Below, one piece after another: positions 4,878 through 25,991 of a DNA stretch of 62,876 bases. A program made the position numbers and the translations under genes. Source of the DNA: a virus; the IMG/VR virus record IMGVR_UViG_3300037558_002528, positions 1 through 62,876 of that record; one strand, written 5' to 3'. Under the pieces are notes generated by a model. It saw only the letters and a program-made list of their open reading frames with translations. It did no database searches and had not been told where the DNA came from. Each line of letters begins with the position of its first letter. Position 1 is the stretch's first letter.

Positions 4878-6098
4878 TCATCCCTTCACGCACAGGACCT
4901 GCTTGAGGGTATGCACCACCTCAACCAGATCAGATTGAGCGGCCATCACCGCATCGATATCCTTATAGGCAGCCGGGGTCTCGTCCAGCACCTCAGCATC
5001 CTTGCGGCATTCGACGCCGGCCGTGGCCGCGATGTGATCCTCGATCGTGAACTGCTTGCGCGCTTCGTTGCGCGACATCTTGCGCCCTGCACCGTGTGAG
5101 CAGGAGCAGAAGGCCTCGCGCTCGCCCTTCCCGCGCACGATGAACGACTTGGCACCCATACTGCCGGGAATGATCCCGAGTCGCCCTTCGTGGGCGTCGA
5201 CCGCACCCTTGCGCGTGACCATCACGTTTTCGCCGAAGTGGCGTTCCCACGAAACATAGTTGTGGTGGCAGTTCACTGCCTCGCAGTCGCACGTGAAGGG
5301 CTTCGGTATCGCCTGGTGCAGGGCCACCAGCGCCGCCTGCATCATCAGCTCGCGATTGATCCGGGCAAAGCCCTGGGCCCAGCCGACGGCCTCGAAATAG
5401 TCATCGAAGAGGTTGGAGCCTTGCGGGATGTAGGCCAGGTCCTGGTCGGGCAGGTTGATGAACCAGCGCTGCATATCGCGCTTGGCGGCCTCGATGAAGT
5501 AGCTTCCGATAGCATTGCCGATGCCACGGGAACCGGAATGCAGCATGATCCAGACGCGCTGCTGCTCATCCAGGCACAGCTCCACAAAGTGGTTACCGGT
5601 GCCTAGGGTGCCGGCGTGCGTGACTGCGCGCTCGGCCGGCCGCGACAGCTTCGGATGCTTGTGGGCCAGGACCGGCAGGAAGTCCATTTGCCGGCGCAGC
5701 GCTTCCGACGCGCCGTAGGGCGACTCGCCCCAGGCGCCGCGATCACCCGGGCCACCGTTGTTGGTCCGGCCATGGGGAATTGCTGCCTCGATCGCGCTGC
5801 GCAGCGGGCCCAAGTTGTCCGGGAGGTCCGAGGCCACGAGCGTGGTGCGCTGCGCGGCCATCCCGCAGCCGATGTCCACGCCGACAGCGGCCGGGATGAC
5901 GGCGCCCTTGGTGGCGATCACGCTGCCCACGGTGGCGCCCATGCCCCAGTGCACATCGGGCATCGCGGCCACGTGCTTATGGATGAAGGGCAGGCTGGCC
6001 AGGTTGCGCAGCTGCTGCTTGGCTGCGTCTTCTACCTGCACGCCACGCGTCCAGGCTTTGATGGGTTTTCCGGTGCTGTCGATGATTTCGAAGGTCAT
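4878..6098 (-). CDS. rtcB: RtcB-type RNA 3'-phosphate/5'-OH ligase
   Basis: Full-length 406-residue RtcB, close to the roughly 400 residues of the bacterial enzyme. RtcB joins 2',3'-cyclic-phosphate or 3'-phosphate ends to 5'-hydroxyl RNA ends using GTP and Mn2+. Metal-site residues are visible: D75-x-x-C78 in GVDIGCG, H170 in GTGNHFVE, H187 in MLHSGSRG, and the CHHN block at 277-280. The guanylylated histidine is H335 in CSCSHGAGRKMSR. It overlaps the upstream J-domain gene by 4 bp. No cyclase gene (rtcA) is present. In a phage its likely use is repair of tRNAs cut by host anticodon nucleases (inference). Confidence 0.95.
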   Translation of the reverse strand: MTFEIIDSTGKPIKAWTRGVQVEDAAKQQLRNLASLPFIHKHVAAMPDVHWGMGATVGSVIATKGAVIPAAVGVDIGCGMAAQRTTLVASDLPDNLGPLRSAIEAAIPHGRTNNGGPGDRGAWGESPYGASEALRRQMDFLPVLAHKHPKLSRPAERAVTHAGTLGTGNHFVELCLDEQQRVWIMLHSGSRGIGNAIGSYFIEAAKRDMQRWFINLPDQDLAYIPQGSNLFDDYFEAVGWAQGFARINRELMMQAALVALHQAIPKPFTCDCEAVNCHHNYVSWERHFGENVMVTRKGAVDAHEGRLGIIPGSMGAKSFIVRGKGEREAFCSCSHGAGRKMSRNEARKQFTIEDHIAATAGVECRKDAEVLDETPAAYKDIDAVMAAQSDLVEVVHTLKQVLCVKG

Positions 6099-16977: not shown

Positions 16978-17312
16978 TGCGCACCTGCCTTGGCCAAGGT
17001 GGCCTTCATCGAGTCGAGGTCTGAAAAGGACCAGAAAGCCTGGTGCGCCTCGATGGTTTCGATGGCCAGCCGGAGCAATTCCACCAGGTGGTCATGAGCA
17101 TTGCAAGCGCGGACAATGAATTCAGCGGTGGCCTGCGCCACGTCGTTGCCATCGCCATCGGTCATGCCAGTGACGATGAAGGCAAAGGCGGAATGATCCT
17201 TTGCATTGACCTCGGTCCAGCGCCCGCCTTCGGTCATGAGCTCATGAACGGCCGCGCTCGGATACTCGGTGCCAAGGGAATAAGGTGTAGCGGTGTGAGC
17301 CGTGATGCTCAT
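16974..17312 (-). CDS. Hypothetical phage protein, first gene after the structured leader
   Basis: 112 residues from MSITAHTAT, with GAGGAG upstream. The family is found in small phage early regions (FIVRACNAHDHLVELLR is characteristic). It directly follows the RNA candidate at 17404-17544, and its ribosome binding site can pair with that RNA, so it may be the regulated gene. Confidence 0.65.
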   Translation of the reverse strand: MSITAHTATPYSLGTEYPSAAVHELMTEGGRWTEVNAKDHSAFAFIVTGMTDGDGNDVAQATAEFIVRACNAHDHLVELLRLAIETIEAHQAFWSFSDLDSMKATLAKAGAQ

Positions 17313-17403
17313 GGTTTTCTCCTCGTTATAGGCGGCCAGGTCAACCAACCTGGCCGGCGCTTCGGCTTTCGCTGCATGTTTCAACGGCAAAGGAATGTTT
17401 CGC

Positions 17404-17544
17404 GCCAACATCAGAGCGGGCCGGATTGGGTACCGGCTGGGCGAGGAAGTCTGTTACCTCGTGGCTCGCCGGCTTACAAAGTCCGGTGCCTTCCCACTGT
17501 GGCCAGCAGTGCGCCTGCTTGTGCGCTCCCGCTCTGATGTTGGC
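17404..17544 (-). ncRNA. Structured RNA candidate (c4-antisense-like architecture)
   Basis: A perfect 17-bp inverted repeat (17404-17420 with 17528-17544) closes a 107-nt region that itself folds. There is a CACTG/CAGTG hairpin near 17493-17509 and a longer arm built from CCGGA/TCCGG and GGCGAG/CTCGCC pairs. No convincing ORF lies here. The strand is taken from the operon around it. The layout recalls the c4 antisense RNAs of P1/P7-type phages, a family with homologues in other phages. The identity is not established. Confidence 0.55.
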
Positions 17545-17676
17545 CCTGGCCTTTCTCGACGCCAGGGCGGTCTACTCGCAGGGGCCGCTGCGATACCGGG
17601 GCGCTGGCCAGAATCAAATTCGGTGTTTTGTTTCGGAGAACACCCAGGCATGCAGGCCTGTTTGAAACTCCACCAT
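17545..17676. other. Gap upstream of the RNA candidate
   Basis: With 17313-17403 and the RNA candidate this makes a 364-bp stretch without a convincing gene. Short inverted repeats are present (GTGTT/AACAC near 17622-17643 and around AGGCATGCAGGCCT), possibly part of the RNA or its promoter. Confidence 0.4.
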
Positions 17677-17811
17677 CTAGCCGTAATCCAGCTGGCCCGG
17701 CCTCGCCGGTTCGGCCCCGCTGCCGGCGGCATCTGCATATGCGTCAGGCTTCAGCGGAGCAGTTGTGCTGCACATGGCAGCGATCAAAATCAGCAGGAGC
17801 ATTGCCGTCAC
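17677..17811 (-). CDS. Possible small membrane peptide
   Basis: 44 residues from a GTG at 17811 that overlaps the upstream TAG by one base. It opens with a hydrophobic segment (MLLLILIAAMC) then a polar tail. The cysteine resembles a lipobox but Met at -1 is unusual. Coupling is the main support. Confidence 0.35.
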   Translation of the reverse strand: MTAMLLLILIAAMCSTTAPLKPDAYADAAGSGAEPARPGQLDYG

Positions 17812-18164
17812 TAAGCCCCGATGCCGTACTCGGCAACGAAATCGGCGTAGTCCTGGACTTGGCGGTGCGTCATGTCGAGGGCATCTGTACGGTCGCCATC
17901 GGCCTGGGCGCGGAAGAAGCGGTCGGCATGCGCCTGGCAACCGGCAATGAACGAATCGCTGGCGATCTGGAAGAGGTCGAAGCCGTCGCCCGGCACCGTG
18001 GCCGCTTCGACGCTGTAGCCGATGACGCGCCAGCCATCACGCTGGGTGGTCACCCACAGGTGGAAGGTCTGGCCGTCGCGCTGGTAGGTATCTCCGAGCA
18101 GGCCGGCGCTATCCCTCAGGTTGGCCGGGCGGATCGGATGAAGTTGGGTAGGGGTGTTGGGCAT
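17811..18164 (-). CDS. First gene of the leftward early operon, function unknown
   Basis: 117 residues from MPNTPTQLH; GGAGCAAGCG sits correctly before this ATG. The protein is compact (FHLWVTTQRDGWRVIGYSVE suggests beta strands) without a recognised domain. It lies immediately downstream of the OL-like operators, the position of the first PL gene of lambda. Confidence 0.65.
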   Translation of the reverse strand: MPNTPTQLHPIRPANLRDSAGLLGDTYQRDGQTFHLWVTTQRDGWRVIGYSVEAATVPGDGFDLFQIASDSFIAGCQAHADRFFRAQADGDRTDALDMTHRQVQDYADFVAEYGIGA

Positions 18165-18193
18165 CGCTTGCTCCAGCATTCGGTTGTAAGTGA

Positions 18194-18267
18194 CTACAAC
18201 CAAAGGTTACAACAAGCGATTTGGTTCTGCAACACAAAGTTGTAGAAATTGTGAAAAAAAGTTGTAG
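18194..18267. promoter_or_regulatory. OL-like operator cluster
   Basis: Three 19-bp sites with 6-bp arms and 7-bp spacers: CTACAA-N7-TTACAA (18194-18212), CTGCAA-N7-TTGTAG (18227-18245) and TTGTGA-N7-TTGTAG (18249-18267). A perfect GGTTGTA/TACAACC palindrome (18182-18201) overlaps the first. The same architecture recurs at 19815-19891, so CI or Cro probably binds both clusters. Confidence 0.75.
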
Positions 18268-18283
18268 TCTGGATGATGAGGCG

Positions 18284-18305
18284 AAAAAAAACCGCCTGGC
18301 GGCGG
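18284..18305 (-). terminator. Terminator of the repressor operon
   Basis: On the minus strand CCGCC-GCCA-GGCGG is followed by eight T. It lies 28 bp beyond the stop of the SLATT-like gene and separates the repressor operon from the OL-like control region. Confidence 0.8.
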
Positions 18306-18332
18306 CTTCTGTACTACGGAAAAAGTTGAGAC

Positions 18333-18890
18333 TTATGCTTTAACTTCGATGCTCTGGCGGTCGAAATCCCAGAAGTGAGCTAGCAACTGTTTGTAGAAAG
18401 GGATCTTTACCACCGAGGCCTTATCGTTTCTCGCAATCTTGAGCTGATTTTCACAGATGATGACAAGGGCAGTAAGAGCTGGCGGCTCACCTCCCTCTAT
18501 TGTTAAGAGCCGGGATTCCCACTTGGAAAGATCGGACTCCACAAAATCACGTTCCCCAGCAAGAGCAATGTCAGCCAATAGAGCTTTGTAGCTCTTCGCA
18601 AACTCGGCATGTTTCTTTGAGCGGTCCGCGAATGAAAACACCAGGGAAAGAGTAGACGAAGCTGTAATAGCCAGGGCAATACGAGTGAGGGCAACTGGAT
18701 CGGCTAATTTTGCGAGTGCAGCCGAGCCGCCAATAACCGCAATTGCCTTACCGCATTTATCGAAAAGTTCAAAAAAGCGTTCCCGCTTCTGATGATAGAC
18801 GCAGGAAATCTCTGCCCTGCAGAGGATTTCATCACGCTTTTCCCAAAGGTAATCTTCGGCGGTCTTTTCAGTTTGCGGATTATCACTCAT
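18333..18890 (-). CDS. Two-TM SLATT-like protein in the rexAB position
   Basis: 185 residues. After a soluble N-terminus (about 45 residues) come two hydrophobic segments (about 47-64 and 68-90), then a helical domain with SKWESRLLTIEGGEPPALTA and a conserved-looking CENQ. This layout resembles SLATT-type two-TM effector proteins, predicted pore formers of bacterial immune systems. It is the last gene of the repressor operon, starts in a 4-bp overlap, and would be expressed in the lysogen. The base composition is AT-richer than its neighbours. The SLATT assignment is inference. Confidence 0.65.
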   Translation of the reverse strand: MSDNPQTEKTAEDYLWEKRDEILCRAEISCVYHQKRERFFELFDKCGKAIAVIGGSAALAKLADPVALTRIALAITASSTLSLVFSFADRSKKHAEFAKSYKALLADIALAGERDFVESDLSKWESRLLTIEGGEPPALTALVIICENQLKIARNDKASVVKIPFYKQLLAHFWDFDRQSIEVKA

Positions 18891-24400: not shown

Positions 24401-25559
<1,159 letters not shown>

Positions 25560-25563
<4 letters not shown>

Positions 25564-25991
25564 CCGCCGCGCCCGGCATGTGCTCCGCCTACGGCTGCCC
25601 GTGCGCGGCCACCGCCTCCAACGGCGGCAGCAGCTGGTTCTGCACCTACCACTTCGGCACCGAGGCCACCTCATGGGCGCGCATCACCCTGGAGCTCAAG
25701 CGCCTGGAGTGGCTGCTGACCGTCTGCCGTGGCATCCGCGTCTGGTACGGCACCGAGCGCTGGGAGCGCGTGTACCGGCTGATCCAGAAGGACATCGTCC
25801 TGCACCAGCGCAGCGACCTGCTGTTCAACCGAGAGGTCGACGGCAACGTCACGAACTGGCTGCGCCGGCCGGAGACGTTCATCGACCACTCCGTGCGCGG
25901 TTCCATGCAGCCAAGCCTCCCCGTGACACCCCAGCAGGTCGCCGTCCAGGACCCCGTTCAGCGCGTGCAGTTCGCTGCGCCCACCGCATAA
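25560..25991 (+). CDS. Hypothetical zinc-finger phage protein
   Basis: 143 residues; ATG overlaps the previous stop by 4 bp. The N-terminal CSAYGCPCAATASNGG and FCTYHF pattern can bind zinc. The rest is helical with WERVYRLIQKDIVLHQRSDL. Located just after the replication protein; role unknown. Confidence 0.65.

Follow-up and report, generated by a model that had tools for sequence, protein, structure and literature searches.

What is the strongly folded element between two genes of the minus-strand early operon in IMG/VR virus record IMGVR_UViG_3300037558_002528, and does it act on the gene that follows it? We analyzed a stretch of 62,876 nucleotides (positions 1 to 62,876 of the record; hereafter, the window), which is prophage-like, with a repressor, recombination genes and a tail region, and with an integrase that adjoins a tRNA gene at the right end. 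The element lies on the minus strand in a gap of about 364 nt (17313-17676), and the ATG of the next gene (17312) is about 91 nt downstream of it. The initial annotation had seen a highly structured RNA, closed by a perfect 17-bp repeat around 107 nt and containing internal arms, in a leader directly before this gene. The repeat was borne out at 17404-17420 and 17528-17544 with a spacer of 107 nt; in 25 dinucleotide shuffles of the window, no inverted repeat of this kind (at least 17 perfect pairs, within 200 nt) turned up. The position in the gap before the gene stands as well, but the element does not mark the operon start: two ORFs precede it, one of 116 codons and a short one that is lipoprotein-like, and a terminator-like site (18303-18291) lies upstream of both and of the element. 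Near the left end of the record there is another perfect hairpin, of 18 bp with a 4-nt loop (2429-2468).

Relatives of the element were not reached through its neighbors. With the neighboring genes as bait, no shared leader was found in viral contigs; the flanking 116-aa protein had no match as query, and the downstream 112-aa protein retrieved related operons that lack the element. Two prophages (L131 and L132) came from a search with the 364-nt leader in 393 genomes of the taxonomic family to which a Herbaspirillum locus had led. Compared with the window, they keep both arms, the upstream hairpin and the hairpin just inside the 3' arm, and differ in the middle. When 18 nt of the 3' arm were used as a pattern, three more copies of this plan were found, in the viral contigs L160, L161 and L162. 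A covariance model built from these six copies, the window included (R1), found divergent copies (L165-L168 and others) in which closing stems of other sequence still pair, and which brought out the two sequences that stay constant in the family, GCGUGGANGGACACGC and GCCGGUAUCRAGCCCGGC. R1 also settles the direction of the element, as it scores the window copy, one of its six seeds, at 140.6 bits on the minus strand versus 36.8 bits on the plus strand; the folding energy is -75.2 kcal/mol on the minus strand (z -5.2), and the plus strand has a z of -5.25. Several candidates were discarded on the way: a hairpin near recT in L114 has, by eye, a repeated, operator-like TTACAGGTTG motif, and the blast matches L133 and L134 have no fold in common with the element.

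The family is large. Pattern scans of viral contigs gave at least 120 stretches for each of the two constant sequences, and a direct scan extracted at least 165 distinct copies, almost all from phage or prophage contigs, versus none from the reversed sequence. R1 matched most of these contigs on which it was run, but only 1 of 94 viral contigs that had been picked for recT or for relatives of the downstream gene. With stricter filters, a second model (R2) found three copies when 398 genomes of the phylum were searched. A few ORFs next to these chromosomal copies and next to two Oxalobacteraceae loci were tested, and none belonged to a phage protein family. The score of R2 on the window copy is 51.7 bits (E 7.8e-7, from a shortened model calibration and with the window among the 71 seeds).

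All copies share one architecture: a closing stem P1, a 2-nt linker C-R, the hairpin P2, a hypervariable domain, and the hairpin P3, which abuts P1. P1 has 6-20 bp, most often 7-9; P2 is a 5-bp hairpin with the loop GAWGGA, and P3 a 5-bp hairpin with the loop NNUCRARY and a G-C closing pair. The hypervariable domain spans 41-220 nt and has no common motif except for a weak enrichment of CCGAAAGG-type tetraloops. Left unaided, RNAalifold recovered the same 18 pairs from 71 copies, namely P1 (8 bp modelled), P2 (5 bp) and P3 (5 bp). In the MAFFT alignment of these copies, 99.8% of the cells pair, a count that is inflated by the pre-filtering of the copies for pairing; the compensatory changes that the initial annotation had proposed to look for in homologues are present as double changes in 17 of the 18 pairs. 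The covariation score is 0.595, versus 0.134 for shuffled and at most 0.094 for slid alignments; sliding the register lowers the paired share to 29-42%, and no shuffle reached the observed values.

Three tests, on P1 length, the P2 loop and the P3 loop, are free of selection on the feature tested. In contigs chosen by P2 and P3, but not by P1, P1 has a mean length of 8.1 bp, versus 1.8 bp with swapped partners, and P1 and P3 occur together at 92 of 113 P2-selected sites (2-7 with swapped partners). Of 80 contigs selected by P3, 59 have both P1 and P2; the P2 stem varies widely among them, but its loop is GAAGGA in 32 and GATGGA in 16 (48/59), and the linker is usually CG or CA. Finally, when any P3 loop was allowed in P2-selected copies, it had 8 nt in 85 of 93, with U3 in 82, C4 in 83, R5 in 82 and A6 in all of these 85, and the closing G-C pair in 83. 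A conserved, covarying secondary structure is thus well supported. Two observations speak against a protein: the lengths of the elements fall in all three remainders modulo 3, and an open sense frame is lacking in 68 of the 165 copies.

In the window, the family copy spans 17404-17544 on the minus strand. The arms of P1 (5' arm 17528-17544, 3' arm 17404-17420, together the inverted repeat) pair with probabilities of 0.96-1.0, and the stem covaries in the family. P2 (17511-17526) consists of GCGC, the loop ACAAGCAG and GCGC, with a pairing probability of about 0.99, and P3 (17420-17437), of GCCGG, the loop UACCCAAU and CCGGC, directly abuts P1. Internal hairpins fill the variable domain (17438-17510), and the family consensus fold, at -74.0 kcal/mol, is 1.2 kcal/mol above the minimum-energy fold, so that the internal arms are also confirmed. 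A further hairpin, P0 (CCCTGGC/GCCAGGG, 17544-17567), is stacked immediately 5' of P1, at a position where other seed copies have, by eye, a hairpin of other sequence. Both loops depart from the family forms GAWGGA and UAUCRAGC; the window's P2 loop, CA-AGCA, deviates from an elbow-type D-like loop. The window copy is therefore a divergent member of the family that keeps P1, P2 and P3, with both loops changed at the elbow positions.

Does the element control the gene behind it? The initial annotation had proposed that CTTCCTCG pairs with the CGAGGAG of the ribosome-binding region of the gene at 17312 and had likened the RNA to c4, and for such an antisense RNA or anti-Shine-Dalgarno switch there is both the phage location and real complementarity; the proposed anti-Shine-Dalgarno lies in one of the internal hairpins (CGAGG/CCUCG). 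The complementarity is, however, not conserved among homologues. CGAGGAG is absent from the other seed copies; L160 keeps the element but has a different downstream gene and no CGAGGAG, and some copies have no same-strand gene shortly downstream. With copies in so many gene contexts, a leader that shuts the ribosome site in cis did not hold up. Nor did the likeness to c4: when the window and the part 17200-18350 were scanned with Rfam, at gathering and at relaxed thresholds (E up to 10), c4 was not among the matches, and even the relaxed threshold gave nothing convincing near the element; the c4 antisense RNA of phages P1 and P7, likewise an RNA of a phage operon, has neither sequence nor structure in common with the element by this search. 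We regard c4-type or anti-Shine-Dalgarno control of this gene as extremely improbable. Between the element and the ribosome site we read an 8-bp hairpin, GGCCAGGU/ACCUGGCC (17334-17355, minus strand), from the sequence.

The element matches no family in Rfam 15, including the large phage RNAs GOLLD and ROOL, and a scan of the window at the gathering score found two tRNAs and nothing else. Its layout nevertheless recalls tRNA. As in tRNA, a 2-nt linker leads to a D-like arm whose loop has GG, and a T-like arm with UCRA in its loop and a closing G-C sits on an acceptor-like stem without a linker. The equivalents of U55, C56, R57 and A58 are present in 82, 83, 82 and 85 of the 85 copies, and that of G53-C61 in 83. 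In tRNA, residue 18 of the D loop enters the T loop and is paired there with residue 55, and 19 and 56 form a Watson-Crick pair (PMC4810234). It is likely, as judged from sequence, that the P1-P2-P3 layout and the GG and UCRA loops mimic this elbow. For the window copy, docking of the loops is uncertain, because both are changed at the elbow positions and leave no canonical GG/UC pair.

There are also clear differences from tRNA. The T-like loop has 8 nt, one more than the T loop of tRNA; the D-like stem has 5 bp; the acceptor-like stem has 6-20 bp and, often being 8-18 bp long, exceeds that of a canonical elongator tRNA; and the equivalent of residue 8 is C instead of U. Neither Rfam (RF00005) nor ARAGORN called a cloverleaf with an anticodon arm at the element in the window or the tested carriers, and there is no excess of CCA after position 7 of the 3' strand of P1. 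Because of the extra T-loop nucleotide, the 5-bp D-like stem, and the lack of a recognized anticodon arm and of CCA, we speak of a tRNA-like element and not of a tRNA. A tRNA-like domain coupled to a second, non-tRNA domain is also found in tmRNA, but the family element is small, has a D-like stem and no called tag frame, and ARAGORN found no tmRNA with tag peptide in 60 loci. Mimicry of tRNA is well known from RNA viruses and a few cellular RNAs. Viral tRNA-like structures such as that of TYMV share the D/T-loop type of elbow mimicry, here proposed for the family, but lie at the 3' ends of RNA genomes, whereas the family element is internal to the genomes of DNA phages.

Bacterial Y RNAs (YrlA with Ro60/Rsr) also contain a tRNA-like module, which is closed where the 5' end pairs with the 3' end, and Rsr and Y RNA genes sometimes lie beside rtcB (PMC7790460). 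The prophage in the window has a gene for an RtcB-type RNA ligase (4878-6098), and one could thus envisage a Y RNA, with the tRNA-like module as a handle and P1 binding Ro60/Rsr. Yet the ligase gene is present in the window alone of the 50 family carriers tested, so that we rejected a link between RtcB and the element. The Ro60/Rsr (TROVE) protein was found in none of 34 carrier records, two bacterial genomes with seed copies among them; there is no Rfam match, and the family, unlike Y RNAs, is phage-borne, with a large hypervariable domain at the anticodon position. The Y RNA explanation is already largely refuted and, in our estimation, very unlikely.

The carriers are well over a hundred unrelated phages, and the copies are un-annotated. 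Named phages were identified with a short composite query and model matches: Caulobacter phage DMCA, Pseudanabaena phage Pan3, Acidovorax phage AP1 (two copies), Alcaligenes phage QDWS595, and Komagataeibacter phages phiKX1 and phiKX2. In DMCA, the element occupies 25553-25687 of the record, on the plus strand. Plasmids of Roseomonas mucosa and Sinorhizobium meliloti each have a model match, too. No carrier was gained from a second search of phages with a short query, whose matches are mostly inside annotated genes. None of the named carriers has an annotated feature at the element, the Sinorhizobium record being almost without annotation altogether. Phages of Alpha- and Betaproteobacteria and of cyanobacteria are among the carriers, as are viral contigs without an assigned host. 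The family is apparently previously undescribed, as no description of another RNA class in open-licence PMC papers (a scope that excludes subscription papers and preprints) matches it.

A segment of 309 bp around the element is 93% identical between the window and L160, although the flanking genes differ; the module therefore moves as a unit. One might take it for a MITE-like mobile DNA element, with the arms of P1 as terminal inverted repeats, particularly since six related copies have an identical P1 arm sequence around a divergent interior and a P1-only mini form exists. But the sequence of P1 changes freely across the family while its pairing is kept, P2 and P3 covary around fixed loops, and no target-site duplication is seen by eye beside the seed copies. 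The covariation refutes this explanation, to which we give almost no credence.

There is no fixed neighbor gene; the neighbors differ from phage to phage. Several carriers hold two copies, tandem pairs included, and some copies adjoin tRNA genes or sit between them, for instance in the phage tRNA arrays of L231 (1934-2237) and L237 (4283-4826). In the annotated stretches of named carriers the element always has the same orientation as the gene or tRNA that immediately precedes it, and in two of these carriers the next downstream gene is on the opposite strand. The constant orientation, together with the window copy's place between genes of one operon and the P0 hairpin stacked on P1, would suit a processing or regulatory element in cis: RNase P or RNase III would be attracted by the tRNA-like fold and the long P1, such that the polycistronic phage mRNA is cut or protected and no separate RNA acts in trans. 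RNase P does handle substrates other than tRNA, including the phage M3 and C4 RNAs (PMC11143913). However, P1 varies from 6 to 20 bp, its flanks have no constant cleavage-site bases, and if the element were just a place for cutting, its structured hypervariable domain of 41-220 nt would be left unexplained. We consider action in cis possible, but rather unlikely.

The variable neighbors, the opposite-strand genes downstream, the proximity to tRNA genes and the carriers with two copies instead favor action in trans, which is the most likely mode for these sequences. With moderate confidence, we suggest that the family is a phage-encoded tRNA-like non-coding RNA, in which an elbow scaffold displays a variable arm. 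P1 would correspond to the acceptor stem, the linker to residues 8-9, P2 to the D arm, and P3, stacked on P1, to the T arm; the loops of P2 and P3 would dock to form the elbow, and the hypervariable domain, at the position of the anticodon arm, would be presented as a payload that differs from copy to copy. The RNA would be transcribed as part of phage operons or tRNA arrays and could be a stable adaptor or decoy. Its target would be a factor of the host or the phage that recognizes tRNA elbows, conceivably an enzyme of tRNA processing or modification, or a defence nuclease that cuts tRNA. It has been proposed that YrlA, also a tRNA-like RNA, possibly competes with a nuclease that cuts tRNA (PMC7790460). 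Whether DNA phages deploy a whole class of RNAs whose elbow displays fast-evolving arms, as decoys or adaptors in conflicts between phage and host over tRNA (its processing, its modification, or defence by tRNA cutting), is a more speculative matter, and we would at present rather doubt it. A covariation-supported family in gaps that annotators left blank would be a sizeable unannotated share of phage biology. It may be a tool by which phages engage the host machinery for tRNA handling, and it offers a testable tie between the two, with a short searchable signature, GCGUGGANGGACACGC ... GCCGGUAUCAAGCCCGGC.

Some loci hold further structures. L132 has a match to a type III hammerhead-like ribozyme (574-640; 30.6 bits, below the Rfam cut-off of 48.5) in which the core CUGAUGAG...CGAAAC is present; the match is on the 5' side of a long stretch that looks non-coding and also contains a family copy. 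The two prophages L132 (1048-1283) and L131 (1867-2103) share a further segment, about 237 nt long and 91% identical, which in both precedes the family copy; it has no Rfam match and is possibly another RNA module. L174 (2218-2283) and L175 (1501-1566) have a 66-nt hairpin of P1 only, identical in sequence to P1 of the window copy; a weak full-length family match lies about 570 nt away. Perfect hairpins of 18 and 16 bp (CCACACAGAAGC...) lie upstream of relatives of the window gene 16974-17312 in L006 (4371-4448) and L018 (4530-4609); their arm resembles P1 of L167, and the family models have no convincing match there. Upstream of a relative of the same gene, L006, L016, L017, L018, L021 and L035 share conserved mosaic segments, and these partly non-coding leaders, as they appear to be, may hold further new RNAs.
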